DNA of 64,000 nucleotides from Ryuthela nishihirai. Lineage: Eukaryota; Arthropoda; Arachnida; Araneae; Heptathelidae. This document shows positions 17,886 to 63,451 of the stretch, one piece after another. Numbering within the stretch: position 1 is the stretch's first letter; every line of letters begins with the position of its first letter. The stretch spans positions 29,922,707-29,986,706 of the forward strand of contig JAWZYU010000025.1 of the NCBI GenBank assembly GCA_038380435.1. Direction: 5' to 3'. Both the position numbers and the translations under genes were made by a program. A model generated the notes under the pieces. That model was given only the letters and a program-made list of their open reading frames with translations, was not told the origin of the DNA and did no database searches.

Positions 17886-17912
17886 AGGACCGAATCTAAG
17901 AGATTCGGTCCT
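17886..17912. repeat. Perfect short hairpin
   Basis: Arms of 12 bp (AGGACCGAATCT and its complement) enclose a 3-nt loop. It lies at the 5' edge of the LINE relic. There is no U tract or RNA gene context, so it is listed as a structure only. Confidence 0.85.
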
Positions 17913-18059
17913 TACCAGGTCACTAGCAATTTCGAATTATATAGAAATGATACCCAAACGATGCACGTTTTTAAAACAACATCGATATCTTTATCTTAAC
18001 TGTTTAAACGTACTTTTGATTAAATGGATCTGCAATTATTACATCACAGCAGACCATGA

Positions 18060-21021
18060 ACGATCCCACTAATGTGCCTGACTTCGAGCCATCTGTGAAG
18101 ACAGGAAAGAAGTCCGGGTACTCAGCAGGATGGCTGGCAGAGAGTTGCCGGCACACACAGTCGGGTGTAAAGGCCTTTCCCGTCGTGGATATGGAAAATT
18201 ACAGGGAGGGGAAACAGCGAGCCACGGTGGAAGTGGCTTGGCTGTCAATTGTGCGTCACTATCGATACTGATGTCTCTTAGGGAACCTTGGACTCGAAAA
18301 CAAAAAGGACGAATGGCAGTCGACCGATTTGTGTAAAGCATTTCCCACTTTGGACTGAAAACGCAGTCCCAAATTGGATGGCTAGGCAGGGATCGCAATT
18401 TAAATGCATATTGTAGAGGCAACTGCTGACAGTGACACTCTGTCACTGTCAGCAGTTGCCTCTATGAATACGAATAGTGAAGAGATAAAGATGGTCCGTC
18501 GGTCTCAATGTAGAGACTCTGGACCGGTGAGGTGCGGAAGGCTCCCGTGCAAAAACGGAGGGCCTGATGACGGAGCGGGTCCAGCACCTTCACCACCAAA
18601 TCCCAGGCACAGTCGTACACATGGGATCCATAGTTCAGTTTCGATCGGACAAGTGCCTGGTAAAGGTGCAGCAGAGAACCTAGGTCAGCTCCCCACGAGA
18701 GAGAGGAGAGGACCTTGATGCTGTTCAGTGCCCGCGTGCATTTGGACCTGACATGATGTATGTGTGGTAAAAAGGTCAATTTGCAATCAAAGATCAGACC
18801 AAGAAACTTGGTCTCCGTCACAACTGGAATGAAGTTACTCCCGAGCTGTAGCTCGGGATCCAGGTGAAGATTACGCTTGTGGCAAAAGTGCACAGAAGTG
18901 GTCTGTGCGGAGAACCGAAACCCGTTTGCAATCGCCCAAACCGAAAAATTGTTCAGGGCAATTTGCAGTTGTCTTTCAATGACCCTCATTGTGGATGAAG
19001 AGGAAAAGATGCTAAAATCGTCAACATAGAGGGCATTGTTCACAGATGGCGGAAGTTGTCTAGTAATAGAATGAATCTTGACAGAGAAAAGCGTAAGACT
19101 CAGAATGCAGCTTTGAGGCACCCCCTCTTCCTGGGGTATGGCCGCGACAGAGTGTTGCCGACACGGACACAAAAAGAACGTGCCAATAAGAAGTTAGAGA
19201 TGAAGATTGACATGTGATCTCTGAAACCAAAGTTATCAAGGTCATGAAGAATGCTGAATCTCCAAGCCATGTCGTATGCTTTTCCGATGTTGAAGAAAAT
19301 TGACACCAGATGCTCTCTACGTAAAAATGAATTTCTGATAGCCAATTCGAGGCATATCAGATGGTCAAGAGTTGACCGTTGCCTGCAATAGCCACACTGG
19401 GCGTTGGAAAGAATGTTGTGGTGTTCTAAACACCAGATTATTCTGGCATTTACCATTCTTTCCAACACCTTGCACATGCAGCTCGTCAACGCAATGGGAC
19501 GATAATTGGAAAGAATCTTGGAATCCTTTTCAGGCTTCAGAAAGGCCAAGACAATTGCATCACACCAGGAGTCCGGAAACTGCTCTTCGAGAAAAATGCG
19601 ATTGAAAAGATGGAGCAGCCGATCCTTACTCGATGGTGAGAGATGTTGTAGCATGGAATAATGGACATTGTCCGACCCAGCAGCAAATGTACAAGAGGTG
19701 TGCAGAACAAGGCGAAGCTACTCTGCTGTGAATGGCCTGTTGTAAGGCTCCAGGCCATTTGAGCGGAAGGACAGTGGAGAGCGTTGGGCCCTGCTCTTCT
19801 GGGCCAGAAACTCGAGGGAGTAAGAAGATGAAGAGATGGAGGAGAATAACTTCCCCAGAGTATCGGCAATTGATTTGGGTTCAGCAATTGCCTGTCCATT
19901 GTGCTCCAGGATCGATAACGAGTGGGACGTGTAATTCCCACCCATCTTCCTGACTTTATCCCACACGACCTTAGAATTGGTGATGCGGGTGATAGAAGAT
20001 GTATATTTGATCCAAGATTCCTTCTGGCTCTGGCGCCAGATGAAACGAGCTTTAGCCCTGGCGCGTTTTAATGTTTCAAGGTTGGGGGACGTCGGATATC
20101 TCCGAAACAACCCCCAAGTCTTGTTCTGAGCTTTATGAGCTGCGGTGCAATCTGGATTCCACCATGGTTTCGGAAAACGAGGAAACCGTGTCGAAGTTTG
20201 AGGAATTGTTGATACAGCTGCATCTACAATCCATTGTCTCCGCTACAGCCACATTGATGGGCCCCTGGCTGACAGAGCGGTCATCGAGCTCAGAGAGCAG
20301 CTTGAAACCAATCCAGTCAGCCTGATCAAGCCTCCATCGTGAGACGTGTGAAGGGCTGCAAAGCCCTCCCCGGGAGATAGTGCACACCACGGGGAGGTGA
20401 TCGCTACTGTAAAGGTTGTCCTCGACTTCCCATGTAAAGAGTGGAAGAATCGAGGAGGAGTAGATGGTGAGGTCAATAGCAATGAATGTGTGAGTTGGGG
20501 GAGTGAAAGTACGTACTGAAACAGGTGTTCAAAAGGGAGAGAGAATGATCGAGGAGCCACTGCTCCAGGACTCCGCCCATCCCATTCGTGTCAGCACTGC
20601 TCCAAAGTGGACTGTGTCCATTGAAGTCCCCCATGATGAGGAAGGGAGACGGCAGCTGCGAGACGAGGTTATTAAGGTCTTCCTGGGATACGATGCTTCC
20701 AGGTGGAAGATATACTGAGCAGACAGTCAGGGAGAACCCCACGAAAATGCGGATGGTTACCTCCTCTAATTTGGTGGTGAGGGCTATAACCTGGAATGAA
20801 GAATGGTTGCTCACGAGGATGGCGACACCCCAGTGAGCTGGACCATCTCCATCTGAATCCCGGCAAACTAGTGAAAAATGTCCGATCATGAGATCAGTGA
20901 CTGGCTGCAAGTATGTCTCCTGCAGCCACACACAGATGGGTTGGTGTGCCTGAAGGAGGGCCTTGATGTCGTCAAGATTCCTCTGGAATCCATGACAATT
21001 CCATTGTAGGTGTGTGGCCAT
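18060..21021 (-). mobile_element. Jockey-like LINE, endonuclease and reverse transcriptase, broken
   Basis: On the minus strand the pol ORF opens at 21021 with an apurinic-type endonuclease: LQWNCHGFQRNLDDI, then VWLQET, SVYLPPG, and FLIMGDFNGHSPLW. The reverse transcriptase follows: NYRPIALTSCMCKVLERM, the motif-A region (SIFFNIGKAYDMAW, with D changed in the usual F-D-x-x-KA-D pattern), GVPQSCILS, and the catalytic ALYVDDFSIF at about 19040. A post-RT region continues to about 18060. Frameshifts divide it into at least five frames, so it is inactive. Many plus-strand ORFs here are shadows. The YVDD box is intact, so decay may be recent relative to the other LINEs here. Confidence 0.92.
18414..18464. 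repeat. Perfect 24-bp-arm hairpin inside the LINE
   Basis: Arms 18414-18437 and 18441-18464 are exact complements around a 3-nt loop (CTC). It falls within the LINE coding region and disrupts the frame there, so one arm is a newly made inverted copy, not part of the original LINE. Confidence 0.92.
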
Positions 21022-21104
21022 CTCAGGACGTAGAAGAGTGGGCAGACTATGAATTCCTATTCAACTTAACCGATGCAGAGGACAGTTTAGTGAATAGGGG
21101 GAGA

Positions 21105-24225: not shown

Positions 24226-24930
24226 TTCAAGGACCTCAACAACAGCTCAGAGATGGTCGGGGAAGGAGATCCACTGGAGAGCGATTACCAAACAGATGGA
24301 AGCCTCCCATCAAAGGCCATGCAGAGTGCTCTTTAACGTACATGGGGCGGGGGTGGCTCAGTCGGTAGCGCGCCAGGCTCGTAATCTGTAGTTCCCAGGT
24401 TCGAGTCCCAGCTGGGTCAGCGTTGAGATTTATCTCCGCAAAATTTCCCCGCCCTGCCCACGGTCAGTAGGGGACACCGATGGGCTTGGAAAGGCCGCCG
24501 TCCGTCGGATGGGACGTTAAGCCGTGGCCCCGTGTGCGGGAGAGACATACCCTGTGCACGTTAAAGAACACGCTGGATGGCCTTGACGGGAGGCTACCAT
24601 CTGTCTCCCAACAGCTGTTCCAGTGGGTCCCCTCCCCCAACCTTCTCTGAGCCTTCGGGGTCCATATGACCTGGCCATTTAGCCCATGGTGTGCAAAAAA
24701 GTGCCGCTCAGAGGTAAAACAACCCAACCCAACTCTTTAACGTACACATAGCATGGCTCTCCTCACACGGCGCCACAGATTTACCCTTCTTCCCCAGCCA
24801 GTGTCCATTTTTCCACCTGACAATAATGTGGGAATTAACGTAGATAAATTTTAACACCCCCAATGTTCGGACTACAAGCTGAAAACTGTAGATTACAAGT
24901 ATGGAGCGTTATCAGCTCAGCCAACCGACG
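24226..24930 (-). mobile_element. Old SINE-B split by a younger SINE-B
   Basis: The two halves (24226-24342 and 24733 to about 24930) read as one minus-strand SINE-B, from the CTCAGAGATGGTCGGGGAAG region through the CTTTAACGTACA block to a decayed tRNA-like head near 24890-24930. Between them sits the plus-strand copy listed separately, flanked by 14-bp duplicates. Confidence 0.85.
24343..24732 (+). mobile_element. SINE-B, full length, with target duplication
   Basis: A tRNA-derived head (A box near TGGCTCAGTCGGTAGCGC, B box GGTTCGAGTCC) is followed by a body of about 310 bp ending GTAAAACAACCCAACCC. The head resembles an elongator tRNA-Met, with CTCGTAATCTG where tRNA-Met has the CAT anticodon. 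Flanking CTCTTTAACGTACA occurs at 24329-24342 and 24733-24746. The insertion lies within an older minus-strand copy of the same family. The A and B boxes would form an internal RNA polymerase III promoter. The 87-codon minus-strand ORF across it is incidental and recurs in every young copy. Confidence 0.95.
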
Positions 24931-25884: not shown

Positions 25885-27600
25885 AGGGGAAAAGAATATA
25901 AGACTAATATTCGTAGCATGAAAATAAAATATGACAGAAAAGTTCCATATGGTAGAGAATTTTATTCGGACCAATTAACCTCTTTCATTAGTATTTGCAG
26001 ATATGATTTCAAATAAATTCGTCACATTTCAATATTTCTTTTCTTATTCCTTCATAAAGAAAGTGTTATTCATCATTAATTATTTATTTCATCTCACATT
26101 CAAGAAAAAAATCAAAACAGCCATGAAAATATAGATGTAGAATATTTCAGCAACAGAGAATTAAAAAAAAAATTGGTCTCCGACACAAATCATATGGCGC
26201 GCTTCATAAATTTTTTGTTCCATTTCCTACAGACACAAATTACACACAAACGATTTGCTACACAAAGCTAGGAATCAATAATATCTACATCACCTAAGCC
26301 TACAATTTACAGGCGTATAAACCTATGCAGTTGACTTCTGTTGTCCGAGAGGAAAAGTAGGCTTTATATTTGCTTAGTACTTTAGTATGGCAGATGTGAA
26401 TGTCGGTCATTAATGTGAACCTTTGTCTCTGGTATCAAATGATTATTTCTTCATAGTATACGAAGTATTGGATAATTAGCGACTCCAAAGAAAATGAGGT
26501 ATAATATAATATGTTTCCTCAAAAACGTAAGATGCAAAGAATGAACCAATCCCAATGAATATTCTGGTGGTGAAATAATTATTGTTTTCGTGGTATACGA
26601 AGTCACGATCAATTAGCGAAGATAGGAAAGAAAGACATGATAAAAATTGTTCCCTTAAAGTGAAATTCGTGAATAATTATGCAACAGATTATATTATCAT
26701 TCGGTTTTTAATGCTCATTACCTTGAAAAACAATGATTATTAATATAAGATCGTAATTTTCATCTTTTCTGAATTATACAGAACTGCTTGTAATATCTGA
26801 CTTTCTACGAAATTCTCCTGTGCCACAGCAATGATGAGTAAAGACATTAACGACTTAATATAATTAATTTGAAGATTTTTAACGAAAATGTCCGAGCTTG
26901 GAGATTTTGCGATTCCAGAAAAGTTATTTGACATTCTCTTTTGTTTTGAAACGGTTCAAGGCATTTGAATACTCTCTTTGTTATGAAAGACCAACACAGC
27001 TTCAGATATTTCATTCAGAGGAAAAAGTGACTGCTGAAATAAAACTAGTGTTACAACTACATTTCTAGATTTTCGCTACTACAGTTGCATATGTCATTCA
27101 GGAAAATATCCAAACTTGAAGAATTTGCAATTCTCTTCTGTTCTGAAAAGTTCACTGCATTTTAGTATTTCCTTTCTTATTAAAGACCAAAGCCACTTAA
27201 AAATAATTACTTTGCAGAGAAAATGGGATTGATAAAATAAAAATGTGTGTTACAACTGTTTTAAAAGATTCCATCTTTGCAACTGTTACATCTGTGTTTC
27301 AAGGTTTGTAGACTCGAGTTCATATTAGCGGACTTAGTTTGTTAGTTACTATTTTCATTCAGCCTAAAAATATGATTAATGCAATTACTATCTTAACTCG
27401 TTATTTGTGAATGTTGACTCTTCCGGAATATGCATTTACTAATGTGGTTTAAATAAAGTCTGAGAACAGAAAATATCGTATACGAAGAAGAAAGAAAATA
27501 TTTTTTAAACGATTAGGTAAACTTTTAAACTTACTTCTCGGAAGAATTAGTTTTTAATACATTTCCTTGAAATTGTAATTAATTATATATAAATATTAAA
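25885..27600 (+). repeat. Upstream unit of the intact Gr gene
   Basis: 25890-26730 is homologous to 5440-6360 in ordered blocks, and parts recur upstream of the other Gr copies. The remaining bases to the ATG are AT-rich. No convincing TATA or initiator can be singled out. Regulation of the receptor, if any survives, would lie here. Confidence 0.65.
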
Positions 27601-28875
27601 ATGATTCGCATAAACGAGATACCTGATCCTAAAAGTCGTTCTGAGGATGTAGAAAATGGAATCTTTATTCCCAGATCATCTAATGCTATTTACCCAATGT
27701 CACACCCTGCTATCTTTGTAAGAGATGCTAAAGAATTGCAGCACAGTAGTTCCAGTTTAAGTCTCATGATGAAAGTATTGGCATTAGCAGGATTCGGATT
27801 CTTTCAAAAGAGTAATGGAAAACGAAAATGGATTCAAACACTCTTTGCCTATTTCACCATTCTGGGAATCCATATCCTTTTCATCTATTCTACATGCATT
27901 ATAGTTTTTAAAGGAATAACTTCGAGAAATTTTAGTTTAAAGAGTGATATTCCACCGAGACTAACAGAAATGTCTTCCTTTGTGTTGTGGCATTCCTTGA
28001 GAGTTCGTCAACATCGTTTACTAAATTTATTCTTGAATTTGAATAAATTTGAAAAAGATTTTCCGATCGAGAATCGTCAATCTTTAAAATCATGGATTAC
28101 ATTTTGCATTTTCCTAATCATTTTACACCCTATACTTTCGGCATCTTTGTATGTATTCCTTAATACAGATCTAGGATTACGCCGTTTCATAGATTATTAC
28201 TTTTTTGGAGCAAAACCCGATGACATGTCTCTATCTATTTATGTGTCCGTGCACATTTTTTACGTGAGTTATTGTGGAAACATACATTTCATTACCAATT
28301 TTTTGGCTATGATTTACGTTTTCCTATGTGTCCGTTTTCAGAAGATGCTTCACATTTGCCACGACGTTTTGCAACGCAATGTCAGATTGCCTACACAGTC
28401 AAATCTATTTCTTCAACAACTTCTAGCTTATCGTAAAATCTCATGCTTAGTTGGTCAAATGGAAGATTCGCTATCCTTTCCAATATTTCTAGTAATAGTG
28501 AAGCACTTTTTACTTCTGTTTACATTCTTTGGTAAAGTGCTTGGTTTGTCCAATTTTATCAACACACCGTCTTCAGTAATTTTTTTTCTATCGCTGTTCC
28601 TCAACAGTTCCGTATCATTTCTTTGTATATCATTCTTTGCTGCAGAGGTAAATGAAAAGCACAATGAAATTAGAATTACTTTGTCAGAGATTGCGCAGAA
28701 TATGAGAACAACCCGTTGTCATGGTGACACTGATTTCTTGCTGTTAAAGATAATTAACGCTGAAAATGTTAACATTTTATCCGGGTGGAAAATGTTCATA
28801 TTCAGCAGAAGTTTTATTCTGTCGGCTTGTGGAAGCTTGTTAACTTACAGTTTGTTAATTCTTCAATTGAACTAG
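27601..28875 (+). CDS. Gustatory-receptor-like protein, intact
   Basis: A single 424-codon exon. The start MIRIN is shared with the pseudogene at 12737, which supports it. Hydrophobic segments at about residues 80-104, 122-135, 163-187, 212-246, 288-317, 325-350 and 401-423 fit a seven-helix protein. The length fits the insect-type gustatory receptor family (usually 350-450). The last helix ends LTYSLLILQL (residues 414-423), matching the family's TY-hydrophobic5-Q signature; RVRQHRL lies on a predicted loop. Gr proteins are membrane ligand-gated channels or chemosensors with cytoplasmic N-termini; the ligand cannot be guessed. It is the only uninterrupted member of the local array. Other polytopic families are possible, but the terminal signature makes Gr the best call. 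Confidence 0.85.
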   Translation: MIRINEIPDPKSRSEDVENGIFIPRSSNAIYPMSHPAIFVRDAKELQHSSSSLSLMMKVLALAGFGFFQKSNGKRKWIQTLFAYFTILGIHILFIYSTCIIVFKGITSRNFSLKSDIPPRLTEMSSFVLWHSLRVRQHRLLNLFLNLNKFEKDFPIENRQSLKSWITFCIFLIILHPILSASLYVFLNTDLGLRRFIDYYFFGAKPDDMSLSIYVSVHIFYVSYCGNIHFITNFLAMIYVFLCVRFQKMLHICHDVLQRNVRLPTQSNLFLQQLLAYRKISCLVGQMEDSLSFPIFLVIVKHFLLLFTFFGKVLGLSNFINTPSSVIFFLSLFLNSSVSFLCISFFAAEVNEKHNEIRITLSEIAQNMRTTRCHGDTDFLLLKIINAENVNILSGWKMFIFSRSFILSACGSLLTYSLLILQLN

Positions 28876-29469
28876 TAAAACTTTCATCGCATTATTTTTC
28901 CCCTAACATATTCAAGTGAAAAGAGCAATGTTCGGTGTAGAAATGTTTGTTCCTATTTAATGAAATATAAACTGTAAATGTACATGAATTTCCTAATATG
29001 CTCTGAGTGGTCATTGGAATATGACCTCCTCCATGTTTTCAGTCGAAGCTAATATCGAAAATCTATAACTTTTAAAATAAGCGATTTACGAAAAAATGAG
29101 ATTGAAGAAGAAATTACAGATATCCATCAAGTCTCTCCAAGTCACGGTTTTAAACAACATTCTTTCAGTATTTAAAGAGTTATGTAATCTTGAATAATTA
29201 CCAACATCATTGTCAAAATTAGAATTTAAATCAAAATTTGAATAAGGAACATTGTTTCAAAACATTTAACTCAACAGATGTATATGTAAGAAGTTTATAT
29301 AAATAATTCTTTCGATATATTTCAGTTTTCTTAAGATGGGAAGAATCTTAAGAAGAAGAATCGAAAATAATGTTTTTTATAACTTTATCCATATACCAAA
29401 TACTCCTGTGAGCACACGAACCTTTTAATGAATTAATGTACAATGTTATTTACGTGTCAAAGATAAAAA
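28876..29469. other. Intergenic, between Gr copies
   Basis: It holds the 3' flank of the intact receptor and, from 29272, a block shared with 9358-9420. No separate gene and no clear AATAAA just after the stop were seen. Confidence 0.4.
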
Positions 29470-33407: not shown

Positions 33408-33418
33408 ATCGAAAGAAG

Positions 33419-33804
33419 GGTTGGGTTGTTTTACCTCTGAGCGGCCCTTTTTTGCACACCATGGGCTAAATGGTCAGGTCACATGGACCCCGAAGGCTCA
33501 GAGAAGGTTGGGGGAGGGGACCCACTGGAACAAGCTGTTGGGAGACAGATGGTAGCCTCCCGTCAAGGCCATCCAGCGTGTTCTTTAACGTGCACAGGGT
33601 ATGTGTCTCCCGCACACGGGGCCACGGCTTAACGTCCCATCCGACGGACGGCGGCCTTTCCAAGCACATCGGTGTCTCCTACTGACCGTGGGCAGGGCGG
33701 GGAATTTTGTGGAGATAAATCTCAACGCTGACCCAGCTGGGACTCGAACCTGGGAACTACAGATTACGAGCCTGGCGCGCTACCGACTGAGCCACCCCCG
33801 CCCC
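33419..33804 (-). mobile_element. SINE-B, full length, with target duplication
   Basis: A young copy, very close to those at 24343 and 46532. ATCGAAAGAAG flanks it at 33408-33418 and 33805-33815. The ORFs of 67, 71 and 114 codons that cross it are incidental readings of the SINE. Confidence 0.95.
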
Positions 33805-33815
33805 ATCGAAAGAAG

Positions 33816-37853: not shown

Positions 37854-39151
37854 ATGATGAGTATAGATGAAGCTTTTGATCTAGAAAATCAAGCTGTGGG
37901 TATAGAGACTGGAATGAATAATCAGAGACAATATATGTCCTGTCATCCGATTTCACAACCAGTGTTTTGTGTCGATAATCACAGTGAAGAAAAGCACACT
38001 AAATCAGATTTAGATCTCATGATGAAAGTATTCACTTTCTTCGGCTTTGGAATAGTTCAACGAAATCGTGGAAAAAGAAGTTTGATTCAAAACTAATTTC
38101 TTCCTTCATCATTTTGTGTATACATATTTGTTTAATCTATTCTATATGCAGTTTAATATTTGCAATAATCGAGTTAGGAACTTTAAGTTTAAAGATTAAT
38201 ATAGCGTGGAAATTAATCAATATGACCTCCTTTGTTTTGCGGCATAGTCTTCGAGTTAGACGACATCGCTTACTCTACTTGTTCCTGAAGTCGAAGAAAT
38301 GTAACAAAGTTCTCATTAGGATTGGCAATCGTAAATCTCTGAAACCGTTAATTGCATTTTGCATCTTACTGATAATTTTATACCCTATTTCCTGCACAAC
38401 GATTCTTCTACCCATTCTTCAAGAATTGCACATGTACGTTGTTCATTACTTCTTTGGATTAAGAATTAATAAAATATCCATGTGCGTTTAAGTTTTCTTA
38501 TTTTTGTTTAATACACTATATTCGGCAAATTTATACTTATTCGATCATTGTGACTGTGATTTACGTTTTCCTGTGTATTTATTTTAAGAGGCAGCTGCGA
38601 AATTGTCACGGCGTTTTGCAGAGGAATATATCATTATCTACTGAACCTAATCTGTTTCTTAAACGCCTTAACGCTTATCGTAAAATTTCATACTCTATTG
38701 GTCTTATGGAAGATTCACTATCATTTCCAATATATCTAGTGTCAGTAACAAATTTTTTCCTTCTGTATGTATTTTTTGTTATTTCTGCTTGGTTTTGCAA
38801 ACGTTAGTCTCACTCTGTCTGTTCGAATTTATGTATTTGCAATATTCATCAAGTGCCGTATCATTTTTTGCCATTACTTTTTGTGCAGCTGAGGTAAACG
38901 AAAAGAACAAAGATATCAGAAGTACTCTCTCAGAGATATCGAAGAACATGGGAATATCTCGTAATCATACTGCCATCGATATGTTTTTGTCAAAGATAAT
39001 AAACGCGAAAAATTAATAAACCTGTTCTCTCGGGGTGGAAAATGTTAAAATTCACCAGAAGCTTTACCTTTCTGCCTGTGGATGTTTGTTTGTCCGCTAA
39101 TTGTCAGTTAAGTCAGACGAAAATAGTCCGTTAATTCTTCAGTTTAAATCG
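37854..39151 (+). pseudogene. Gustatory-receptor-like pseudogene 3
   Basis: I place the start at the ATGATG of 37854, which aligns with the MM starts of the later copies; an in-frame upstream ATG at 37815 is not conserved. The frame is open to a TAA at 38094, just after LIQN, then shifts. Receptor blocks continue as LRVRRHRLLYLF (38245 on), YRKISYSIGLMEDSLSFPI (38680 on), AAEVNEKNKDIRSTLSEI (38890 on) and LSKIINAKN. At least three shifts are needed. The last helix (39030-39151) is damaged and has an inserted segment before LQFKS. It is most similar to pseudogene 4, including its 3' flank. Confidence 0.9.
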
Positions 39152-39502
39152 TAAAAAACGAAATTTCAAAGCGATATTCTTACATGTAACACTTTAAATG
39201 TTAAGGGCAATATTCTTTTTACTTTGTTCTTTTTTAATGAAATATTCACCTTAATGAATGCTACGAAGTACCATGTCGTCTTTTTGATATTGCTATTTTT
39301 AATTATCTGCATTTGTTCACAATATCAATATCGCTTAATACTGTATATTCAAAAAATTCAAGTGATAAAACAATTAAGTAATCCACTACTATTATCTCTG
39401 AATGTTTCTGAATTTTTAAACGTAATTTTCTGATCTTAAATTGAAAGCAATAAATGTATGAAATTCTCATGCACATAAAACTAAATAATATAAATAAATA
39501 AC

Positions 39503-43389: not shown

Positions 43390-44727
43390 ATGATGACTAG
43401 ATGAAAATTTCGATCGTGAAAGTCGTTCGGTTGGTATAGAAATTCAAGTTAATAATCACAGAACAGATACTTCTAGTCATCCTGATTCAGAACGAGCTTT
43501 TCGTCTCAGAAATCATAGTGAAATACAATATACAAGGTTTGATTTAAACACCATAATGAAAGTTCTAGCTTTGTTAAGTTTTGGAATATTTCAACGAAAT
43601 CGTGACAAACTAAGCTGGATTCAAAAATCTCTTGTCTCGTTAGTTACTTTAGGAGTACATACATTTTTCACTTAAGATATATCCATTCCAACTTTTACAA
43701 TTATCACATCACAACACTTAAATCTAAAAATTATTATTTCATGGAGAGTAACAGAAAGCATCTCTTTTGTTTTATGGCATTGTCTGCGAGTCCGACAAAA
43801 ACGCTTACTCACTTTGTTCCTGAGATTGAAGGAATATAATCAAGATTTATATCATAGATATTATAATCAGAGATATATAATATCAGAGATTTATAATACC
43901 CAATTACGATTGGGTATTATAAATCTCTGAAACAAACCATGGATAAAATCTTGCATCGCCCACATAATTTTAAACCCTATCTTAATCCAAACTTTATATA
44001 TATATATATAATCTTGAAGAAAAGGATTTAAATGAAATAATAGGTTTTTATTTCTATGGCTTAACAATTAGTAAAATATTCCCATCCGTTTATTACCTTC
44101 TATATTTGTTTTCTATATTTTATCTGGCAAACCTTCATTTTCTCTCAAACATTGTGACTATGATTTACGTTTTCCTATGCATTTATTTCCAGATATTGAT
44201 GCGAACTTGTCACAATGTTTTAAGGACGAATACCTCATTATCTGTTGAATCTAATCTGTTTGTTCAACAACTTAACGCGTATCGTAAAATCTCATCTTGT
44301 ATTGGTCTTATGGAAGATTCGCTATCATTTCCAATATTTCTAGTAATAGTAACAAACATTTTTCTTCTCTTTGCATTTTTCGGTTATATTCTTGGTTTTT
44401 CAAATACTAGTAGCACATTGTCTGTTCGAATTTTTGTATTCGGAGCATTCTTCAACAGTACCATATCATTTTTTGCCATTACTTTCTGTGCAGCTGAGGT
44501 AAACGAAGAGAACAAAGGTATCAGAAGTACCTCTCTCAGAGATATCGGAGAATATGGGAATATCTCGTAATCATATTAATATCGATATGTTTTTGTCAAA
44601 AGTAATTAACACGAAAAATAAACCTGTTCTCTCGGGGTGGAAAATGCTCAAATTCACCAGAAGCTTTATCCTTTCTGCCTGTGGAAGTTTGCTTATCTAC
44701 AATCTCTTAATTCTTCAGCTAAAATAG
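43390..44727 (+). pseudogene. Gustatory-receptor-like pseudogene 4
   Basis: It starts ATGATG at 43390 but reaches TGA at codon 5 (43402). The first half is further broken, by a stop in TFFT (43674) and by a 48-bp perfect hairpin at 43883-43930. A TA run lies at 43997-44011. The second half is well kept: 44106-44570 reads YVFLCIYFQ, YRKISSCIGLMEDSLSFPI and AEVNEENKGIRST, then shifts by one base in a CT run near 44527. The last helix survives in another frame, ending SLLIYNLLILQLK. Loss may be recent in the 3' half and older in the 5' half. Confidence 0.9.
43883..43930. repeat. Perfect 22-bp-arm hairpin in the pseudogene
   Basis: The arms are exact complements around TACG. The right arm matches the receptor sequence expected here, since GGTATTATAAATCTCTGAAA aligns with GGCAATCGTAAATCTCTGAA in pseudogene 3. 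The left arm is therefore an inverted copy of it. Confidence 0.93.
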
Positions 44728-46107
44728 TAAAAACTAAAATTTGAAAGCAATTTTCTTATATAAGTGTTAAGAACAATGTTCCTTCCACTTTGTTCTTTAA
44801 TTAAATCTTCACCTCAATCAAAGTGTGGCCTGAAATACCAATTACTCTTCTGGTATGCTATTTTTAACATGTTGATATCTTTATAATACGAATTTTACTT
44901 ATCACTGTGTATTGAAAACATTAAAGTACTAAAGTAATTAATAAATCCACTATCTTTGAAGGTTTTTGTCTATGACTTTCTGATATTACCTTTTATGCAA
45001 TTAATTCGTAAAATTCTTAGGCATATAGAAACACTCACAGACGAAAATTTTAGAAAGCAGAATCACATATAATAAAATCAATTTATCACGATTATTCCGA
45101 AAAAGAATATGCTGTATAATGAGTAGTAAATAATCACAGGATAAGTCCTGTAGACATTGAACTCATGAAATAATGAGCTGAAAAAATTGCACATGCCATT
45201 TTATTAAAAAAGATATTTTACATTAATTGATAAGGGAAAAAAACGAAGACGCTGAATATTAAAGAAGTAATTATCAATCTCACAATATTAGTGATTCACG
45301 ACAGCCTTTATCTCTTATTGTATGACGGATATCAACGCATATGTACATAAACGTCAATTAATGTAAACTACGTCTCAAAATAATAGAATGTAAAACCGTT
45401 AAGAACATTTTTTTTTTCAAAATAGCAAAGATATAATTCATCGTTATAAAAAACCAGGAAAATAAACTCTTTTGAACAACCCCAGCATCATTTCTTCACA
45501 ATATTTTTCAAATTATTGAAGACTAGTTTTAATAGTAAATATTTTAAAACTGGCGTAGATTTTGAATTCATATTCTTTTACGCTGATTGATTATAATAAA
45601 CAGGATTTTCAAAGGAAAAATAAACTCCATGTTTTTCAATTATTTTCCTAAACTTTCTCTGTATAATAACTTTTCATTCCATTTACTATATCACAAACAT
45701 TGCTTAATAGAAATCAAATTACTTTCTATTATGTTATTGAAGCGACACTAGGCACTTTATTATAAAATCAAAATGCGAAAATTGAAATTGTTTACTTCCT
45801 TTTCACTAGGCGTCATGTGCAAGTATTGTATGTTGATCACTGTTCCGAAAGTGATAATCATTAAATATTAGAAAGTGACAGACAGAAAAATATTACAGGA
45901 TAAAACTTAACTTCAGTGAAAGTACAGCTTAAAACCGAATGAAAATAATTTCTTCAAACTTTTTATTGTCGTCTAAACATATACGTAGCGTATTTAGTAT
46001 TTATGTAGAAGACACACCACATTCTGGTTATCAAATAATATAAATTTTCTTTTACGGATATTTATTTACAATTTTATTACTAATTATTTTTAGAAATGAC
46101 AATAAAA
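44728..46107. other. 3' flank of pseudogene 4, otherwise unassigned
   Basis: 44740-44830 is homologous to 39165-39275 downstream of pseudogene 3 (AAGAACAATGTTCCTT, CACTTTGTTCTTT, TTCACCT). 45130-45185 shares a repeat with 33040-33115. No gene seen. Confidence 0.5.
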
Positions 46108-46302: not shown

Positions 46303-46531
46303 CTATGAAGAATTTTAACAGAAGAAACTATAATATCTCTCGTAAATTTTAGATTGAGAAAAAGCAATATCAATAGAAGTAACTATAACAACATCTTTTG
46401 AATTTTTACTTGGTTCTTCATTAATGGCTTTCAGGAAAATCTGTTGTGTTCGTACTTTGAATTTTTTTCGTATATGTAACAAGTCTCTTCTCATTATAAC
46501 CCTTACAAATACAGAAGCTTCAACAGTCGGA

Positions 46532-46915
46532 TGGGGCGGGGGTGGCTCAGTCGGTAGCGCGCCAGGCTCGTAATCTGTAGGTCCCAGGTTCGAGTCCCAG
46601 CTGGGTCAGCGTTGAGATTTATCTCCGCAAAATTCTACGCCCTGCCGACGGTCAGTAGGGAACACCGATGGGCTTGGGAAGGCCGCCGTCCGTCGGATGG
46701 AACGTTAAGCCGTGGCTCCGTGTGCGGGAGAGCCATACCCTGTGCACGTTAAAGAACACGCTGGATGGCCTTGACGGGAGGCTACCATCTGTCTCCCAAC
46801 AGCTGTTCCAGTGGGTCCCCTGCCCCAACCTTTTCTGAGCCTTCGGGGTCCATGTGACCTGGCCATTTAGCCCATGGTGTGCAAAAAAGTGCCGCTCAGA
46901 GGTAAAACAACCCAA
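46532..46915 (+). mobile_element. SINE-B, full length, with target duplication
   Basis: A 384-bp young copy with the head and body as at 24343. CTTCAACAGTCGGA occurs at 46518-46531 and 46916-46929. The 89-codon minus-strand ORF is incidental. Confidence 0.96.
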
Positions 46916-47007
46916 CTTCAACAGTCGGAAGCAAGTATGCTTGGGGAATTTAATGGGATAATAAAAGAACTGCGGCTTTTATTCCGGGAACTACTGCAAA
47001 TGTAACT

Positions 47008-53965: not shown

Positions 53966-54485
53966 AATAATAAAAGTAACAAATATTTATATTTAAAATT
54001 TGGTACAATCAGCTTTATGTCTATAATTACAAGATTTATAACGTTCAATACTCCAAATATTAAATTTATGAGTGTTTATAATTAATATTTGTAAGGTATG
54101 ATAGATAATATAATTTTTGCTTTAAATCTGGTTCTACTAAAATGAATAATGTTTTAATAAGACGAAAGAGGAAAATTTGAAAAAACTCATACAATTAGCT
54201 AGAATGTCATTGAAGCCGGAAGTTCAGCAGCCCATTTCCGGAATCCAGTCCCAACTTTCACATGCTAGTTGACAAACCAACTTCACTTTTGATGTTAAAA
54301 TAAACTATATATCAATATTTAATTTTCTCTCTTATTATTTGGTATTTGCACATATGACAAATAAAATAAAATAAACTAAATGTTGAACTTGTTTTGTTCT
54401 TTTCAATTATACTTCTCTCTACTTCTTGTAATTTTCAATATATATTTATTCCTCCCCCTCCAAACTACCCCAGCAGTAATCATAT
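53966..54485. other. Non-coding, left flank of the LTR element
   Basis: AT-rich. The final ATAT (54482-54485) is the left target duplicate. Confidence 0.5.
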
Positions 54486-55104
54486 TGTTGCGGATCACAA
54501 AAATGGATAGCCACTGAGCGTGAGTATTAAAAGCTATATTTCAAAACCAAATTCAATACAAGGTAAATTGTTACAAAGGAAATATGGATGAAGTATCTTA
54601 TTAACAAATCAACTATTAACATGCACAAGTCATCAATCTTCCTGCGTAGAGCACACAATATCAGCTCTGTGTATTTTACTAAATACTACCTTTTACTTGA
54701 TTTACCAGGTCACCCGAAGATCTTCACTCGTAAACCAATTCTCGTCCTGTGCTAATAACTGTTCACACACTAGCCGAACAAAAAGACAGTCCGTATAGAC
54801 ATTCGAAGTTAGCCATAAAAGTTCCCACTTTTATACTTCCGTGTATACACAACACATCAAGTTACTTCTTGATACTTAACGATAAAAGATCCCACTTTTA
54901 TCCTTCCGCGTATACACAACACATCAAGTTACTTCTTGATACTTACGCGCACTGTCTCAGAACAGCTCACCGTCCATTTTCGAACTCACCGACCGTTACA
55001 ACACAACGACCGTTAACGCTCCACTGTCCTTCTCTAAATTCTCCCAAAGTTCAATTCGTTGGCTGAAACTTTGCTTTCGGTTGCCAGATTCTTCTGTCGT
55101 AACA
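54486..55104 (-). repeat. LTR (downstream, 3' in sense)
   Basis: In the sense direction it starts TGTTACGACAG and ends CGCAACA. It holds two copies of a block of about 55 bp at 67-bp spacing (54824, 54891), of which one has TATAAAAG in the sense strand (54828-54835). The 105-codon plus-strand ORF is an incidental reading repeated in both LTRs. Confidence 0.95.
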
Positions 55105-55257
55105 CTGCCCCCTTCCTAGGTCTTGTTCGTCCCGAACAATTCTGGATTCCAAAGTTTCTTCAGTTCTTCGATGAAACGGGGCCAAACGATCCACGTGAAC
55201 CACCTTGCACTTTGTAGCTGGACATCGACGAATGCGATATACCACGTCTGTGTCAAA
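55051..55257 (-). pseudogene. Ty3/gypsy integrase C-terminal remnant
   Basis: The frame reads VVYRIRRCPATKCKVVHVDR then LAPF, the chromatin-side end of gypsy integrases (V-V-Y-R-I-x-R ... K-x-x-V-V-H-x-DRLAPY). It runs over the purine tract into the LTR and stops at 55051. No integrase zinc-binding or DDE core precedes it. It is in a different frame from the 962-codon ORF, so it is likely untranslated. Confidence 0.85.
55105..55117 (-). promoter_or_regulatory. Polypurine tract
   Basis: The sense strand reads AGGAAGGGGGCAG directly before the downstream LTR. It would prime plus-strand DNA synthesis. It overlaps the stop codon of the long ORF. Confidence 0.85.
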
Positions 55258-58004
55258 ATGAAAGCGAATCTCATTATGACGTAGATTTCTTTTCTGACTG
55301 AAGCCTCGTCCACAAACATAATACGTGTAAGGCCTATAGCCCTTGTGAACACGTTTATGTCTCTGCAGGGAGAAGAATCGACTAAGAGTTTTCGTGCAAA
55401 ACCTGTAAAAAGTTTTCTTCTTTGGATTTTTACTTCTATCAACAGTAACAAGGAATGAAAGTCATTAGTGACATAAAATCTAGGGAGAATTTTCATCCTG
55501 CAATCTGACCCTTTTGTCAGCTGACTTTCACTTAATTCAGAACTGTCGTGATGAACCTTCAGCCATATTTCACCTGATTCAATTTGATCCCCAAGGTGCT
55601 TCACAATTATAATATCAGCTCCAATATTCTTTTTAGCGCCTCGGTCCATCTCCTCCTTCCATAATCTTGTTAGAACTGCAGCTTCTAATCCGACAACCTT
55701 ACCTGTTTCTCCTGTATAAGTGAAATCAGTGATGTGTCGGGCTGCTAGCAATATTTTTTCTGTTTTACCTTCACATAGCCAGCTTGCAACATCTTCAGAT
55801 ACTCCTTGTTCTATTAACATGTTACGAAACTTGTTCAAAGCATTGCCGTTATGCAGAACCTTACGGACACGTAATGCTTCATCTACCCTATTATCCACAA
55901 TGTTCACAAAACGCAGAAGTTCTCCTAACTCTTCGACGAGCTCTTGCAGTTCTAAGGATCCGTTACCAAGGAAACACTGAACAGCTTCCATCACTTCCAG
56001 AGAGTTGTCAACAGAGTTTTCAAGAGGTGAATCCATGTTGCTGATTACAGCTGAACAACTCAAACTCTTCATTCCACGAGCTTGTGATGCTGCAACCACT
56101 TTCTTAACTAAATCAACAGCAACATCTTCTGTACTGATGAGATCAATAGCTCCTTTTCCGAATTCAACATCATAAACCAAAGCACACACTCCTTCAGCCA
56201 GCTTTTTGGACACAATTGAGCATATCATTAGAGGAACGCTATCTATGGTAGCCATCAGATCCTTGCAGCGGCAAATCTCCTTATCTGTTGGCACCAGCTC
56301 CCCTGTCTGTACCACGATGCAACATCCGACGTCTTCCATCATCTGCTCGATTTTATCTTTAGTGCAGTCGACTGTGAAGCTAGGGATGGATTCCAATTTG
56401 TCCAGAGTATCTCCCGTCAATTGGCGAGCACGACCGGAGATCATAGGGACCTTGAGACCTAAAGCAGCAAGTGCAGGAGCCAAGACAAGACTCACTTTGT
56501 TGCCGACACCTCCTGTGCTGTTTTCATCTACCATCCGATGGCGCCACTCGGGTCTCCAGCAAAACACATGACCCGAGGAGGTCATAGTTGCTGTTTCTTC
56601 GGAATTCACTTTCTTGGAGCTCTCATTGTAATTAGCCAGGGAAACATCAGTCATGATTGCCAAATTGTTCATTCTGGAGATCAGCGACGAGTTTTGTAAC
56701 ATGATATTGTCCACTTTAGAGCTCTTGTAGTCGTGATAAAACTTTTCTATATCCTTATAATCTAAATGGTTATAATGTCCAAATCTGCACATTGACTGTT
56801 CAGAAAAGAAATTCAGCATGGTTTCGTTGAGATTGTCTGAGGGCTTTACTTCTCTCTGATCGTAACTCTGAGGCTTAGTTTCATCCAGAAAGTTAGTCTT
56901 TGAAGTACTGTCTCTGCCTGAAGCTCTTTTACTAGCATCACCTGTTATGCTTCTAAGCCATCCTTCGGAATTCCTCTTCCTTAAATCCCCACTTTCTATA
57001 AACGATTCGAGTGTGGCTATATGCTTCGGAAAAATCTCTCCGACTTCCGCGGTAAAGTCGAATGGCACTTTGTATCTATGATGAATGGACGCCTCTTCTT
57101 TACTCGGACCACTCTGCGAAACGTAAACTCTGTTTCGTTCCCCTTCATTACCACTCGTTACTCTGCCTTTGCGATAATTGTCCATGACGCATTTTGCTGA
57201 GAGCGAGGAATAGAATACCTTTCGTGTGGATCTCTCTTCAGATCGTGCCAGACTTGTATACCTAGGTATTTTGAAGTGCAAAGCGTACTGTATAGTCTCG
57301 CAGCTCTCTGATCTGTGTGATTGTTCTTCACAGTTCCTAGACATGTCACCAGCGACATAGACACTCTGCCATGCATTACCAGTAGTTGCGTGGTCAAAGG
57401 CATTATCTGCGCTATCTCTACGATTCTTGATTTCCAGTAGCAGATCCACATTTTTATATGCGTTGCCTTTCTCTTTTTCTTTTCCATGTTTACAATCTAA
57501 CTTAACACTATCAAGATCATCTTTTTCACTGACAAATTCAACATTTAAACTATTGCATTGTCTATTGAGTTCGGTTTTATGATCCTTGAACTGATCAATA
57601 ATCTTACCAACTTGAGAAGCCACTTCAGCTCTCATCTCAGTATTTTGTGCGGCCATTTCGGCTTTCAAATCATCTTTTTGAGAAACTATCTCCGTTCTCA
57701 ACTCATTATTTTGTGCGGCCATTTCGGCTTTCAAATCACCTATTTTATCGCTTTGGGCAGCTATATCACCTTTAATCTCAGTATTTTGTGCGGCCAGATC
57801 ACCTCTTTTATTCCTCAACTCATTATTTCGTGCGGCCATTTCGGCTTTCAAATCATCTATTTTATCGCTTTGGGCAGCTATATCGGCTTTCAAATCATCT
57901 ATTTTATCGCTTTGGGCAGCTATGTCGGCTTTCAAGTCATTATTTTGACTTTTAATGTCATTCATCAACTTTACTAATTCATCCATACTTCTAGTGAAAG
58001 GCAT
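55116..58004 (-). CDS. Gag-like coiled coil fused to captured thymidine phosphorylase
   Basis: 962 codons, sole long ORF of the LTR element, starting MPFTRSMDELVKLMNDI just after the primer site. Residues 8-150 are a repetitive coiled coil (14-residue units such as DLKADIAAQSDKID at 23-36 and 37-50), like the Gag start of spider gypsy elements. Residues 150-465 are unassigned. Residues 468-835 align with animal thymidine phosphorylase, which splits thymidine to thymine and deoxyribose 1-phosphate: STGGV, SLVLAPALAALGLKVPMISG, TLDKLESIP, CCIV and SKKL are readily seen. The first 85 or so residues of the enzyme are missing. The active-site K-H pair reads E-N, and the usual GLGHTGG reads RQLTGD-like. 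Residues 836-962 run through zinc-finger and integrase DNA in the wrong frame. Probably not an active enzyme. Confidence 0.88.
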   Translation of the reverse strand: MPFTRSMDELVKLMNDIKSQNNDLKADIAAQSDKIDDLKADIAAQSDKIDDLKAEMAARNNELRNKRGDLAAQNTEIKGDIAAQSDKIGDLKAEMAAQNNELRTEIVSQKDDLKAEMAAQNTEMRAEVASQVGKIIDQFKDHKTELNRQCNSLNVEFVSEKDDLDSVKLDCKHGKEKEKGNAYKNVDLLLEIKNRRDSADNAFDHATTGNAWQSVYVAGDMSRNCEEQSHRSESCETIQYALHFKIPRYTSLARSEERSTRKVFYSSLSAKCVMDNYRKGRVTSGNEGERNRVYVSQSGPSKEEASIHHRYKVPFDFTAEVGEIFPKHIATLESFIESGDLRKRNSEGWLRSITGDASKRASGRDSTSKTNFLDETKPQSYDQREVKPSDNLNETMLNFFSEQSMCRFGHYNHLDYKDIEKFYHDYKSSKVDNIMLQNSSLISRMNNLAIMTDVSLANYNESSKKVNSEETATMTSSGHVFCWRPEWRHRMVDENSTGGVGNKVSLVLAPALAALGLKVPMISGRARQLTGDTLDKLESIPSFTVDCTKDKIEQMMEDVGCCIVVQTGELVPTDKEICRCKDLMATIDSVPLMICSIVSKKLAEGVCALVYDVEFGKGAIDLISTEDVAVDLVKKVVAASQARGMKSLSCSAVISNMDSPLENSVDNSLEVMEAVQCFLGNGSLELQELVEELGELLRFVNIVDNRVDEALRVRKVLHNGNALNKFRNMLIEQGVSEDVASWLCEGKTEKILLAARHITDFTYTGETGKVVGLEAAVLTRLWKEEMDRGAKKNIGADIIIVKHLGDQIESGEIWLKVHHDSSELSESQLTKGSDCRMKILPRFYVTNDFHSLLLLIEVKIQRRKLFTGFARKLLVDSSPCRDINVFTRAIGLTRIMFVDEASVRKEIYVIMRFAFILTQTWYIAFVDVQLQSARWFTWIVWPRFIEELKKLWNPELFGTNKT
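55258..55411 (-). pseudogene. Two damaged C2H2 zinc fingers (captured?)
   Basis: In the same frame as the integrase scrap the sense strand reads FYRFCTKTLSRFFSLQRHKR then VHKGYRPYTYYVCGRGFSQK. The first finger keeps C-x12-H-x3-H and the second keeps the C and the GRGFSQ core. Both have tyrosine where the first cysteine should be, and the second lacks its proper histidine pair. The HKGYRPY linker matches the HTGERPY style of tandem host fingers. A TGA lies upstream at about 55455-55460. Likely a second captured host fragment; it is not translatable as a functional protein here. Confidence 0.75.
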
Positions 58005-58014
58005 TCAATTAAAT

Positions 58015-58033
58015 GATCCCACTTCTGACACCA
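58015..58033 (-). promoter_or_regulatory. Primer binding site, tRNA-Leu type
   Basis: The sense strand after the upstream LTR reads TTTGGTGTCAGAAGTGGGAT. From TGG onward it is complementary to the 3' end typical of eukaryotic leucine tRNAs (ATCCCACTTCTGACACCA). It starts two bases after the LTR. Confidence 0.85.
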
Positions 58034-58035
58034 AA

Positions 58036-58654
58036 TGTTGCGGATCACAAAAATGGATAGCCACTGAGCGTGAGTATTAAAAGCTATATTTCAAAACCAA
58101 ATTCAATACAAGGTAAATTGTTACAAAGGAAATATGGATGAAGTATCTTATTAACAAATCAACTATTAACATGCACAAGTCATCAATCTTCCTGCGTAGA
58201 GCACACAATATCAGCTCTGTGTATTTTACTAAATACTACCTTTTACTTGATTTACCAGGTCACCCGAAGATCTTCACTCGTAAACCAATTCTCGTCCTGT
58301 GCTAATAACTGTTCACACACTAGCCGAACAAAAAGACAGTCCGTATAGACATTCGAAGTTAGCCATAAAAGTTCCCACTTTTATACTTCCGTGTATACAC
58401 AACACATCAAGTTACTTCTTGATACTTAACGATAAAAGATCCCACTTTTATCCTTCCGCGTATACACAACACATCAAGTTACTTCTTGATACTTACGCGC
58501 ACTGTCTCAGAACAGCTCACCGTCCATTTTCGAACTCACCGACCGTTACAACACAACGACCGTTAACGCTCCACTGTCCTTCTCCAAATTCTCCCAAAGT
58601 TCAATTCGTTGGCTGAAACTTTGCTTTCGGTTGCCAGATTCTTCTGTCGTAACA
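58036..58654 (-). repeat. LTR (upstream, 5' in sense)
   Basis: Identical to the other LTR except at 58585. The sense TATAAAAG lies at 58378-58385 and could serve as the promoter for the element's transcript. Confidence 0.95.
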
Positions 58655-59759
58655 ATATTTTAATATTTCAAAAATGCCAAAAACGTTTGTACACTACTGT
58701 TGTAAGGATTTCGTGTTGAACCACAATCAGAGCTCTCCAATACGCTCAAAAGATTAGAATTAGAAAAAATACGTTCATTTGTATATTTCAAACGAGAAAA
58801 TATGATAGTCTAATAAACGTCTACAATAAAGAAAATATTTTACAAATTAGGAAATTGTACGTGTTTCAAATATTATAATATGTTAAAACCCATTGGAATC
58901 AATTTTATTTTCGAACATTTCCAAAGTTAACGCGTTTTTCACAAGGTATAGTATTGATGGATACCCTAGCGCATAAAACATTTGTGCAGAGACATTTTAT
59001 TTACTTATCTAGTAAATTTTTAAATGCTTTACCCACAGACCTCAAAACAATTAATAATGAAAGAGAATTCATTGGAAAAAGCAGGAAGTGGCTACTTAAT
59101 TTGGAGAATGTACATGTTTTGTTTTAGAATAGTTAATTGGGATTATTTCGTTTTAATATTCTTATATTTATAGCATAAATTTATTGATAATGTACATGAG
59201 ATTTTTTACCCTCCAAGGGTAAATTGTTCTGTTGTATGCTTACAAGTCTTCTTTGATATTTATGATATATTTATATTTGCTGCCAAATTAACTTATTTCT
59301 TATTGAGTTGCATAATTTCCTCCAAACGCGAGTGTTTCACTCCAATGGAGGCTGATACTTATTTTCACTATCATTGTAAATGAAAAAATGAGAAATTGCT
59401 GTATTATAATGACAATTATGATAATGTATAGATTTTTTTATTTGAATTCAAGGTTTTCTATAATGTACTGGATAAAAACCACATTTTTTTGTTTTGAAAA
59501 TCTAAAAAATGTTCAATATCACAAGTTTAGTAATTTCTATTGTATAAAGAGTATTTTTGTTGTAATTGTGAATATGGGAAAATAAAAGTTTTCTTCATCT
59601 TACTTTTTGTCTCCGTGTAATATAATTAAACGCATAAAGTTACAAAATCTGAATAACATTTATTTTGTTGATTAAATTGTTCGTGTCAGCAGCTTTTATT
59701 ATGAAATAAATTATAAAATATAAAAATTATACAAAAACTGTTATTATGAAATATTTAAC
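58655..59759. other. Non-coding, AT-rich right flank
   Basis: It begins with the right target duplicate ATAT. The 65-codon ORF at 59388 is low-complexity. No repeat shared with the rest of the window was recognised. Confidence 0.45.
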
Positions 59760-59808: not shown

Positions 59809-60354
59809 ACACTTGGGCTCAATGATCAGATTACAAAGATCTCCAGGACTCAGAGAAGGTTACTGAAGGTGATCCACTGGCACCGCTAACGTAACAGATG
59901 GAATCTTATCTTCAAGCCATTCTGCATGTTCTTTAACCATTTAAGTGTCAGAAGTTGATTAATTAGTTACCCAAAAATCGCTACAAGTGAACTTGCGACA
60001 TTTTTTCATTCTTACCTGCCATTTGTTTTTCATTTCAAGTTTTATATATTTTGTTCAGAATTAAATGCTTTTTCTTTTAGAATGCGATATAAATTATTTC
60101 ATTCATTAGTGGTTTTCTAATGAGGCTCAAAATTTTAGTTACATTTTTAGAGAAAAAAAACCGATTCTGTAAAAGTTAAAGTGCATAGGGTATTGTTCTC
60201 CTAAACTTAGGGGAGCAAGGCTTAACTTCGCATCCGACGGACGCGGCCTTTCCCCCGTGGTTTTCCTTTTTCACCGAGGGAAGAACGGGGGTTACAGGAG
60301 AATAATCTCAATTATGGCATAGCTATGACTAAAACCTGGAAACATCAGATTAAG
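59786..60354 (-). mobile_element. Old SINE-B, broken into pieces
   Basis: 59786-59945 and 60180-60354 carry SINE-B body blocks in minus orientation (ACTCAGAGAAGGTTACTGAA; ATCCGACGGACGCGGCCTTT). About 235 bp of unrelated AT-rich DNA lies between. Its head continues beyond the younger copy at 60745-60795 (AATAAGAGCCTGGCAAGCTA). Confidence 0.8.
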
Positions 60355-60744
60355 CGGTGGTGGCTCAGTCGGTAGCGCGCCACGCTCGTAATCTGCAGTT
60401 CCCAGGTTCGAGTCTCAGCTGGGCCAGCGTTGAGATTTATCTTCGTAGAACTCCCCACCCTACCCACAGTCAGTAGGGGACACCGATGGGTTTGTAAAGA
60501 CCGCCGTCCGTCGGATGTGACGTTAAACCGTGGCCCCGTGTGAGGGAAAGCCATACCCTGTAGACGTTAACAACACGCTGGATGGCCCTAAAGGGAGGCT
60601 ACCATGTCTCCCAACAGCTGCCCAGTGGGTCTCCTCGCCAAAACTTCTCGGAGTATTCGGGGTCATTATTATTATTATTATTGTGACCTGGACATTTAGC
60701 CCATTGTGCGCAAAGAAGTGCCGTTCAGAGGTAAAACAACCCAA
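60355..60744 (+). mobile_element. SINE-B inserted into an older SINE-B, with ATT repeat
   Basis: Full length from GCGGTGGTGGCTCAGTCGGT to GTAAAACAACCCAAC. The usual GGTCCATGTGACC reads GGTC(ATT)nGTGACC, with about six ATT units at 60664-60681. An exact target duplication is not evident. Confidence 0.9.
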
Positions 60745-60829
60745 CACGGAATAAGAGCCTGGCAAGCTACCAGCATAGCCAACCTCTGCCCCACAAGACG
60801 TTTCCCAAAGGGAAAATAATATTTCAGTA

Positions 60830-62135: not shown

Positions 62136-63385
62136 ATGATGTGGACACGTGAAACTGCTGATTTGAAAAGATGTTCGGTAGTTATAGAATCCCCTCATCC
62201 AATATCACAACGCGCTTTTTGTCTCAGAAATGCTAATAAAATGCATTACACAACGTCTGATCTAAATCTGTTAGTGAAAGTATTAGCTTTCTCAGGTGTT
62301 GTTATTTTTTAATGTCATGGAAAAGTAAGGTGGATTCAAAAAATCGTTGCTCGTTTGATTACTATGGGAATACATTTATTTTTCGTCTATTCTATAGCTG
62401 ATCTACTTTATGGGGTAATTACATTAAAAATTTTAAATTCAAATGTTAATATTCCGTGGAAATTAATTGAAACGATTCCTTTTGCTTTGTGGCAGAGTTT
62501 GCGAGCTCGACGTCTTTTAGTTACTTTGTTCCTGAGGTTGAACAAGTTTCACAAAAGTCAAATTCTTCTCCAACACGTTCAGTCTCTAAAACCATGGATT
62601 AAATTTTTGCATCATCTTGATCACTTTAAATCCCATGTTTTGGGGAACTTTAATTCTCTGCATTTCTAAAGAGTCGGAATTGTTAAAGCTTATAGACCAC
62701 TGCTTTTATTGTTTAAAGGCAGAAAAAATGTCCATATTCCTTTATCTTATCCTATATTTGTACTGTGTGTGTTATATTTCGCAAGCTTATTTTTACTTTT
62801 TCATCATTGTGACTATGATTTACGTTTTCCTCTGCATCTATTTTCAGAGACTGCTTCAAATTTCACACCAAATATTTCAAAGGAATGGAATATTATCTTA
62901 CTGAAGACAGCTTGTTTCTTCAACATCTTAAAGTTTACCGTAAAATCTCTTCTTCTCGTGGTCTGATGGAAGATTCACTGTCGTTTCCAATATTTTTAAT
63001 AACAGTGACAAACTTTTTTCTTCTGTTCGTATTTTTTGGATATATGCTTGGAGTTTCAGATATTAGTGCCATAAACTGCATCCTAATTTATCTGTTAGCG
63101 ATGTTCATCAACAGTATCGTATCATTTTTCGCTATTGCTTTTTCTGCAGCAGAGATAAACGAAAAGCACAAAGAAATTAGAATTACTCTCGCAGACAAAT
63201 CGGTGAACATGGGAACATCCCGTAATCATATCTATATTGATTTAATTTTGTCAAAAGTAATTAATATGGAATATGTTGATGCTTTGTCGGGATGGAAAAT
63301 GTTCAAGTTTAACCGAAGTTTTATACTCTCTGCTTGTGGAAGTTTGCTTACCTACAGCCTGGTAATTCTTCAACTGAAATTCTGA
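62136..63385 (+). pseudogene. Gustatory-receptor-like pseudogene 5, lightly damaged
   Basis: The start is ATGATG at 62136, as in the other MM copies. Three lesions only: TAA at codon 59 (62310, after VVIF), one extra T in a T run near 62600, and one extra T near 62902. Between them the receptor reads through: IPFALWQSLRARRL, CIILITLNPMFWGTLI, IVTMIYVFLCIYFQ, then an open stretch 62885-63385 with YRKISSS, MEDSLSFPIFL, AAEINEKHKEIRITL and LSGWKMFKFNRSFILSACGS, ending LTYSLVILQLKF with the TY-x5-Q signature. Two lesions are in or beside homopolymers, so assembly error cannot be excluded. Confidence 0.87.
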
Positions 63386-63451
63386 AATTTACTTTCAAGG
63401 CAGTATTTCTAAACGCAATTTATTCAAATGTTAAAAACAATATTTCATTTC

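Follow-up and report, generated by a model that had tools for sequence, protein, structure and literature searches.

A recently inserted LTR retrotransposon of the spider Ryuthela nishihirai with a thymidine phosphorylase fragment in its long open reading frame

A stretch of 64,000 nucleotides (nt) from the spider Ryuthela nishihirai (assembly GCA_038380435.1, contig JAWZYU010000025.1, positions 29,922,707 to 29,986,706 of the forward strand), analysed in full and called the window here, holds a complete long terminal repeat (LTR) retrotransposon on its minus strand at 54486-58654. The long open reading frame (ORF) of this element joins a coiled coil in the gag position to a large fragment of thymidine phosphorylase (TP). 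The account that we favour, and hold to be reasonably probable, is that of a non-autonomous gypsy-like LTR element in which pol had earlier been replaced by host TP and probably zinc-finger sequence, which transposed on with the aid of a helper and of which the present copy is a recent one.

Anatomy of the element

The element is bounded by near-identical direct repeats of 619 nt with TG...CA termini, the 3' LTR at 54486-55104 and the 5' LTR at 58036-58654, which differ by a single mismatch in 619 positions (T/C, at LTR position 550 of the plus strand). Both are flanked by a target-site duplication, ATAT (54482-54485 and 58655-58658), although this is only 4 nt long and lies in AT-rich DNA. 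Read on the minus strand, a polypurine tract, AGGAAGGGGGCAG (55117-55105), touches the 3' LTR, and a primer-binding site, TGGTGTCAGAAGTGGGATC (58033-58015), starts 2 nt past the 5' LTR. A preceding sequence-only reading of the locus had described the two LTRs with one difference, the ATAT duplication and the purine tract, all of which were recovered here. It had also called the primer site tRNA-Leu-type; the site itself stands, and TGGTGTCAGAAGTGGGATC is presumably the complement of the 3' end of a tRNA-Leu. No tRNA gene for comparison with it was found in the window by ARAGORN. A 26-mer from the LTR gave 0 matches in viral contigs and in bacterial and archaeal genomes, an uninformative result.

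Each LTR also contains a tandem duplication with a spacing of 67 nt (54809-54945 and 58359-58495), of which, on the sense strand, one unit carries TATAAAAG at LTR position 270 and the other GATAAAAG at position 203. This duplication, with its two motifs, could influence the promoter.

The ORF of 962 codons that had been reported was found at 55116-58004 on the minus strand, starting with the first ATG past the LTR and ending in a stop codon that overlaps the polypurine tract. At the given base composition, 962 open codons would be expected by chance in one frame with a probability of about 4e-30. The ORF consists of a coiled coil, an orphan middle, the TP fragment and a tail without a match in its own frame.

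The thymidine phosphorylase part

The TP fragment occupies ORF residues 466-828 (363 residues; 55521-56609, minus strand), in agreement with the roughly 365 residues proposed earlier. It matches Pfam PF00591 with an E-value of 7.2e-28, and human TP matches ORF residues 470-828 with an E-value of 1.6e-69 in a PDB sequence search. The predicted TP fold is intact, with a predicted local distance difference test score (pLDDT) of 87 and a template modelling (TM) score, normalised by the query, of 0.92 to the human TP chain 2wk5_A, in a model whose construction drew on 29 TP relatives and which is therefore biased towards their fold. The captured sequence had been called intron-less, and its alignment to TP proteins shows no intron-sized interruption. 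At the N-terminus of TP, 60-odd residues are either absent or too altered to be recognised. A match to TP ahead of residue 466 was rejected as a claim, since shuffled sequences did as well as the real one against a profile of the N-terminus (with three profiles, 1152, 1218 and 1097 of 2000 equalled or exceeded the real score). Full-length profiles of spider-like and of chelicerate TPs carry the match back as far as residues 413-414, and a profile of all 120 TPs reaches no further than 469. An anchored alignment upstream of the TP part was equalled by 18 of 1000 shuffles over 60 residues and by 52 of 1000 over 75 residues. A degenerate extension back to about residue 413 is thus possible, and it is not claimed here.

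Among the best 120 of 7661 TP matches, identity to the TP part does not exceed 47%. The seven best of these are P0001 (47%), Limulus, Tachypleus, P0004, the spider Oedothorax, P0006 and the spider Stegodyphus; judged by eye from precomputed annotation, Pfam PF07831 is absent from all seven and present in the other 113. In a tree of 45 rows, comprising the element and 44 sequences picked from the 126 fetched, the element nests among these seven, and so with chelicerate TPs, with support of 100/99, on a long terminal branch of 1.31. A grouping with Scylla, Penaeus and one further row, set after the tree had been seen, was rejected by the approximately unbiased (AU) test (p-AU 0.02). By this placement, the TP part appears as a descendant of a chelicerate-type TP, and the sequence by itself points to a probable chelicerate host. 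The tree does not decide its position within the chelicerates: a grouping with the five spider-like rows has support of 40/24, one with the horseshoe crabs a p-AU of 0.558, and the spider-like rows and horseshoe crabs joined to the exclusion of the element a p-AU of 0.438.

Conservation over the 120 TPs sets the element apart from other chelicerate TPs. It retains 51 of the 62 columns that are at least 99% conserved and 31 of the 39 that are 95-99% conserved, so that 19 of 101 columns of at least 95% conservation are altered. In the same two classes, 61 or 62 of 62-64 columns and 27-31 of 32-34 are retained by six chelicerate TPs, each of which was omitted when its own columns were counted. 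In less conserved columns the element resembles a normal spider TP. Among the altered positions are those that correspond to human Lys115, His116, Asp123, Gly153 and Arg202, and the equivalents of Ser217 and Lys221 are retained; where human TP has the catalytic residues His116, Arg202, Ser217 and Lys221, the element has Asn, Lys, Ser and Lys. Because conserved residues including the His116 and Arg202 equivalents are lost, the domain is probably TP-shaped yet enzymatically inactive, and the sequence-only reading of the captured gene as that of an enzyme holds for its ancestry and probably fails for its activity. G>A changes alone would explain 8 of the 19 altered columns and C>T changes alone 2 of them; a strand-biased mutation process was nevertheless dropped as an explanation, since invariant residues have G-rich codons.

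Coiled coil, middle and tail of the reading frame

ORF residues 1-150 (57555-58004) form a repetitive coiled coil in the gag position, with repeats spaced 42-75 nt, which matches generic coiled-coil models only, and those below their cut-offs. The "Gag-like coiled coil" described before is therefore upheld as a coiled coil in the expected place but not as Gag. The orphan middle follows (residues 151-465; 56610-57554). A search with residues 130-464 gave 1578 candidates with shared words, none reaching an E-value of 0.001, and a single-sequence structure model of residues 151-464 was useless (pLDDT 32). Relatives of the fusion at approximately its full length were sought with residues 140-860, which returned seven proteins; these cover 27-49% of the query, and no domains other than those of TP are listed for them. 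Residues 311-464 (56613-57074) do not show the codon-position pattern seen in the adjacent coding parts. They are perhaps captured untranslated or out-of-frame sequence.

Past residue 828 the frame of the ORF gives no match, and another frame encodes a zinc-finger fragment followed by an integrase C-terminal domain; the codon-position composition of the tail fits this shifted frame. The integrase remnant (55177-55248, minus strand) matches PF22938 (Integrase_p58_C) with an E-value of 2.1e-7 and 31.3 bits against a cut-off of 27. In the same frame, a degenerate C2H2 zinc-finger fragment (55273-55404, minus strand) matches zf-H2C2_2 with an E-value of 1.6e-5, under the cut-off, and PRDM9 in a phmmer search of PDB, with an E-value of 6.8e-22 for the whole sequence and 0.0012 for the best single stretch. 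By eye, a tyrosine stands at the position of the first cysteine in both finger units. This fragment is probably a second captured host piece.

The interior was scanned as 20 stop-to-stop pieces of at least 50 amino acids. None of them yielded a protease, reverse transcriptase, RNase H or integrase core, and 18 of them, those other than the ORF and the piece with the zinc-finger and integrase remnants, have no Pfam match at an E-value of 0.01. Of the marks of Ty3/gypsy (Metaviridae) elements, the integrase C-terminal domain at the end of pol is present and a reverse transcriptase was not found among these pieces, so that the element is assigned by its integrase tail as gypsy-like only. The missing enzymes would make it dependent on a helper, and the suggestion made earlier, that it was mobilised in trans, gains support in this respect. 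The companion claim, that host sequence had taken the place of pol, is upheld in that TP lies where pol would be and the ORF has no pol domain; the end of pol persists, as Integrase_p58_C, and the zinc-finger fragment had not been listed.

Age of insertion and age of capture

The insertion of the present copy is recent, because its LTRs differ at one of 619 positions. Set against this figure, the 19 altered columns of 101 in the TP part imply that its decay preceded the insertion, and capture would accordingly be older than insertion unless the donor was already decayed. "Recent", as the element had been called, is thus right for the insertion but not for the capture, or else the donor had decayed beforehand.

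In neutral simulations with 17.7-18.8% of residues changed, 2-6% of runs left the TP part without a stop codon and at most 0.1% left it without a frameshift, the latter for an assumed rate of 0.1 indel per substitution. The tail and residues 311-464 would be open in the frame of the ORF by chance with probabilities of 1.6e-4 and 1.9e-5, respectively, at the given base composition. The open TP frame suggests that pure neutral decay is not the whole explanation.

Proposed origin and alternative explanations

Directly observed are the anatomy, the descent of the captured part from TP, the integrase tail, the zinc-finger-like fragment, the lost conserved residues and the near-identity of the LTRs; from these the following course of events may be proposed. 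The pol region would have been replaced at an earlier time by host sequence, namely the TP fragment and probably the zinc-finger fragment, presumably through a spliced RNA and template switching, which left the integrase tail of pol and the polypurine tract. Transcription would be driven by the LTR, packaging and reverse transcription carried out by helper proteins with priming by a tRNA, and integration accompanied by the 4-nt duplication. An intact relative would provide reverse transcriptase and integrase in trans, and perhaps Gag as well. In further rounds of transposition, probably several, the catalytic residues of TP would have been lost with the reading frame still open, until the present copy was inserted recently. 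The fusion protein may meanwhile have been put to use, perhaps as an enlarged Gag-like protein. An extended form of this account, tentative and in our judgement less likely than not, would see an animal counterpart of the maize element Bs1: a chelicerate lineage of LTR elements that kept fragments of at least two host genes over many transposition cycles, and whose dead TP domain, fused at the Gag position, selection held open as a new structural or packaging part.

Several points weigh against the favoured account. Only a single copy is seen, the donor may itself have been a paralog in decay, the Pfam scan recognised no Gag domain in the ORF, and the zinc-finger match in Pfam lies below the curated cut-off. 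The simulations assume that the changes came after capture, and the extent of change is gauged in them from the conserved columns; if only 10% of residues are changed, 11-18% of runs are stop-free and about 2.7% frameshift-free. The element was, moreover, selected here for its long ORF, which weakens the open-frame figures. A rival origin, which we think rather unlikely, is a one-off capture from an already decayed host TP paralog or retrocopy, in or just before the cycle that made this insertion and with no mobile family behind it. It would agree with the one copy in the 64-kb window, none being found elsewhere in it, and with the failure of the protein search to find a relative of the fusion, and the changes in TP need not have arisen inside the element. 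However, such a donor would need 360 open codons despite its lost catalytic residues, and the zinc-finger fragment, likewise decayed and lying in a different frame from the ORF, points to an older capture.

That the element carries TP as an active or re-purposed enzyme for its own benefit, for example to alter nucleotide pools, is very improbable: the predicted fold of the domain is intact and the Ser217 and Lys221 equivalents are retained, but the five altered equivalents named above and the missing or unrecognisable N-terminus argue against it. Least probable of all is an assembly error by which an LTR pair came to enclose an unrelated interior. Assemblers can be misled by repeats of 619 nt, but here a matching target duplication stands outside them, and primer site and purine tract lie directly inside.

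Relation to known systems

Plants provide the best-documented cases of host genes captured by LTR elements. Maize Bs1 is described in PMC13317346 as an LTR element with segments of three host genes, none of full length, that form a new chimeric gene. The present element resembles Bs1 in carrying pieces of host genes where pol would be (the TP fragment, and probably the zinc finger), and differs in that the host of Bs1 is a plant and its genes are others, whereas here a fragment of a metabolic enzyme has a changed active site and the integrase tail is kept. Capture through template switches among packaged RNAs is described in PMC13317346 and PMC8277862. LTR-mediated retroposition of host mRNA in animals was reported by Tan et al. 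2016, as cited in PMC8277862 and PMC5408686, where one such family, CG17604_r, is said to have been amplified. Judged from these citing papers, the animal retrocopies share with the present element the duplication of host mRNA by LTR retrotransposons, through template switching and with one amplified family; the primer site, purine tract and fusion ORF at the gag position are features of the element described here. CG17604 is a Drosophila gene name. Acute transforming retroviruses are similar in the fusion of a truncated host gene at the Gag position, the loss of pol and the dependence on a helper; they differ in that no env is seen here and the captured piece is not a growth-control gene, and membership among them is not claimed.

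No report of an LTR retrotransposon carrying thymidine phosphorylase was found in the open-licence literature. The sequence-only reading knew of no animal LTR element with this enzyme, which that search leaves standing, although animal LTR-mediated capture as a kind was already known from Tan et al. 2016, as cited in those two papers. The element is a transducing LTR element of an already known kind, with a TP cargo not previously found reported. It illustrates how LTR elements pick up and carry host genes, and the contrast of young LTRs with an old captured gene allows insertion and capture to be told apart in time. Being a young, structurally complete animal copy with an identifiable donor family, a surviving end of pol and an open fusion ORF, it makes the lifetime, the mobilisers and the use of a captured part addressable.

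Surroundings of the insertion

Related genes or fragments are repeated along the window at 12719-14017, 27583-28897, 37943-39480, 43986-45030 and 62195-63408. The pieces at 27583 and 62819 match the Trehalose receptor family PF06151 (E-values 2.1e-9 and 4.8e-6), and those at 12719 and 43986 have no match in Pfam; the element looks to have inserted into an array of gustatory-receptor-like genes. The PF06151 matches fit an arthropod as the host. The remains of non-LTR retrotransposons lie at 16755-21060 on the minus strand, where parts of an endonuclease (PF14529) and of a reverse transcriptase (PF00078) are spread over several frames, and may belong to more than one element. An interspersed repeat of about 390 nt is present in both orientations, with copies up to 98% alike, at 24342-24730, 33418-33807, 46530-46916, 60354-60745 and other places.

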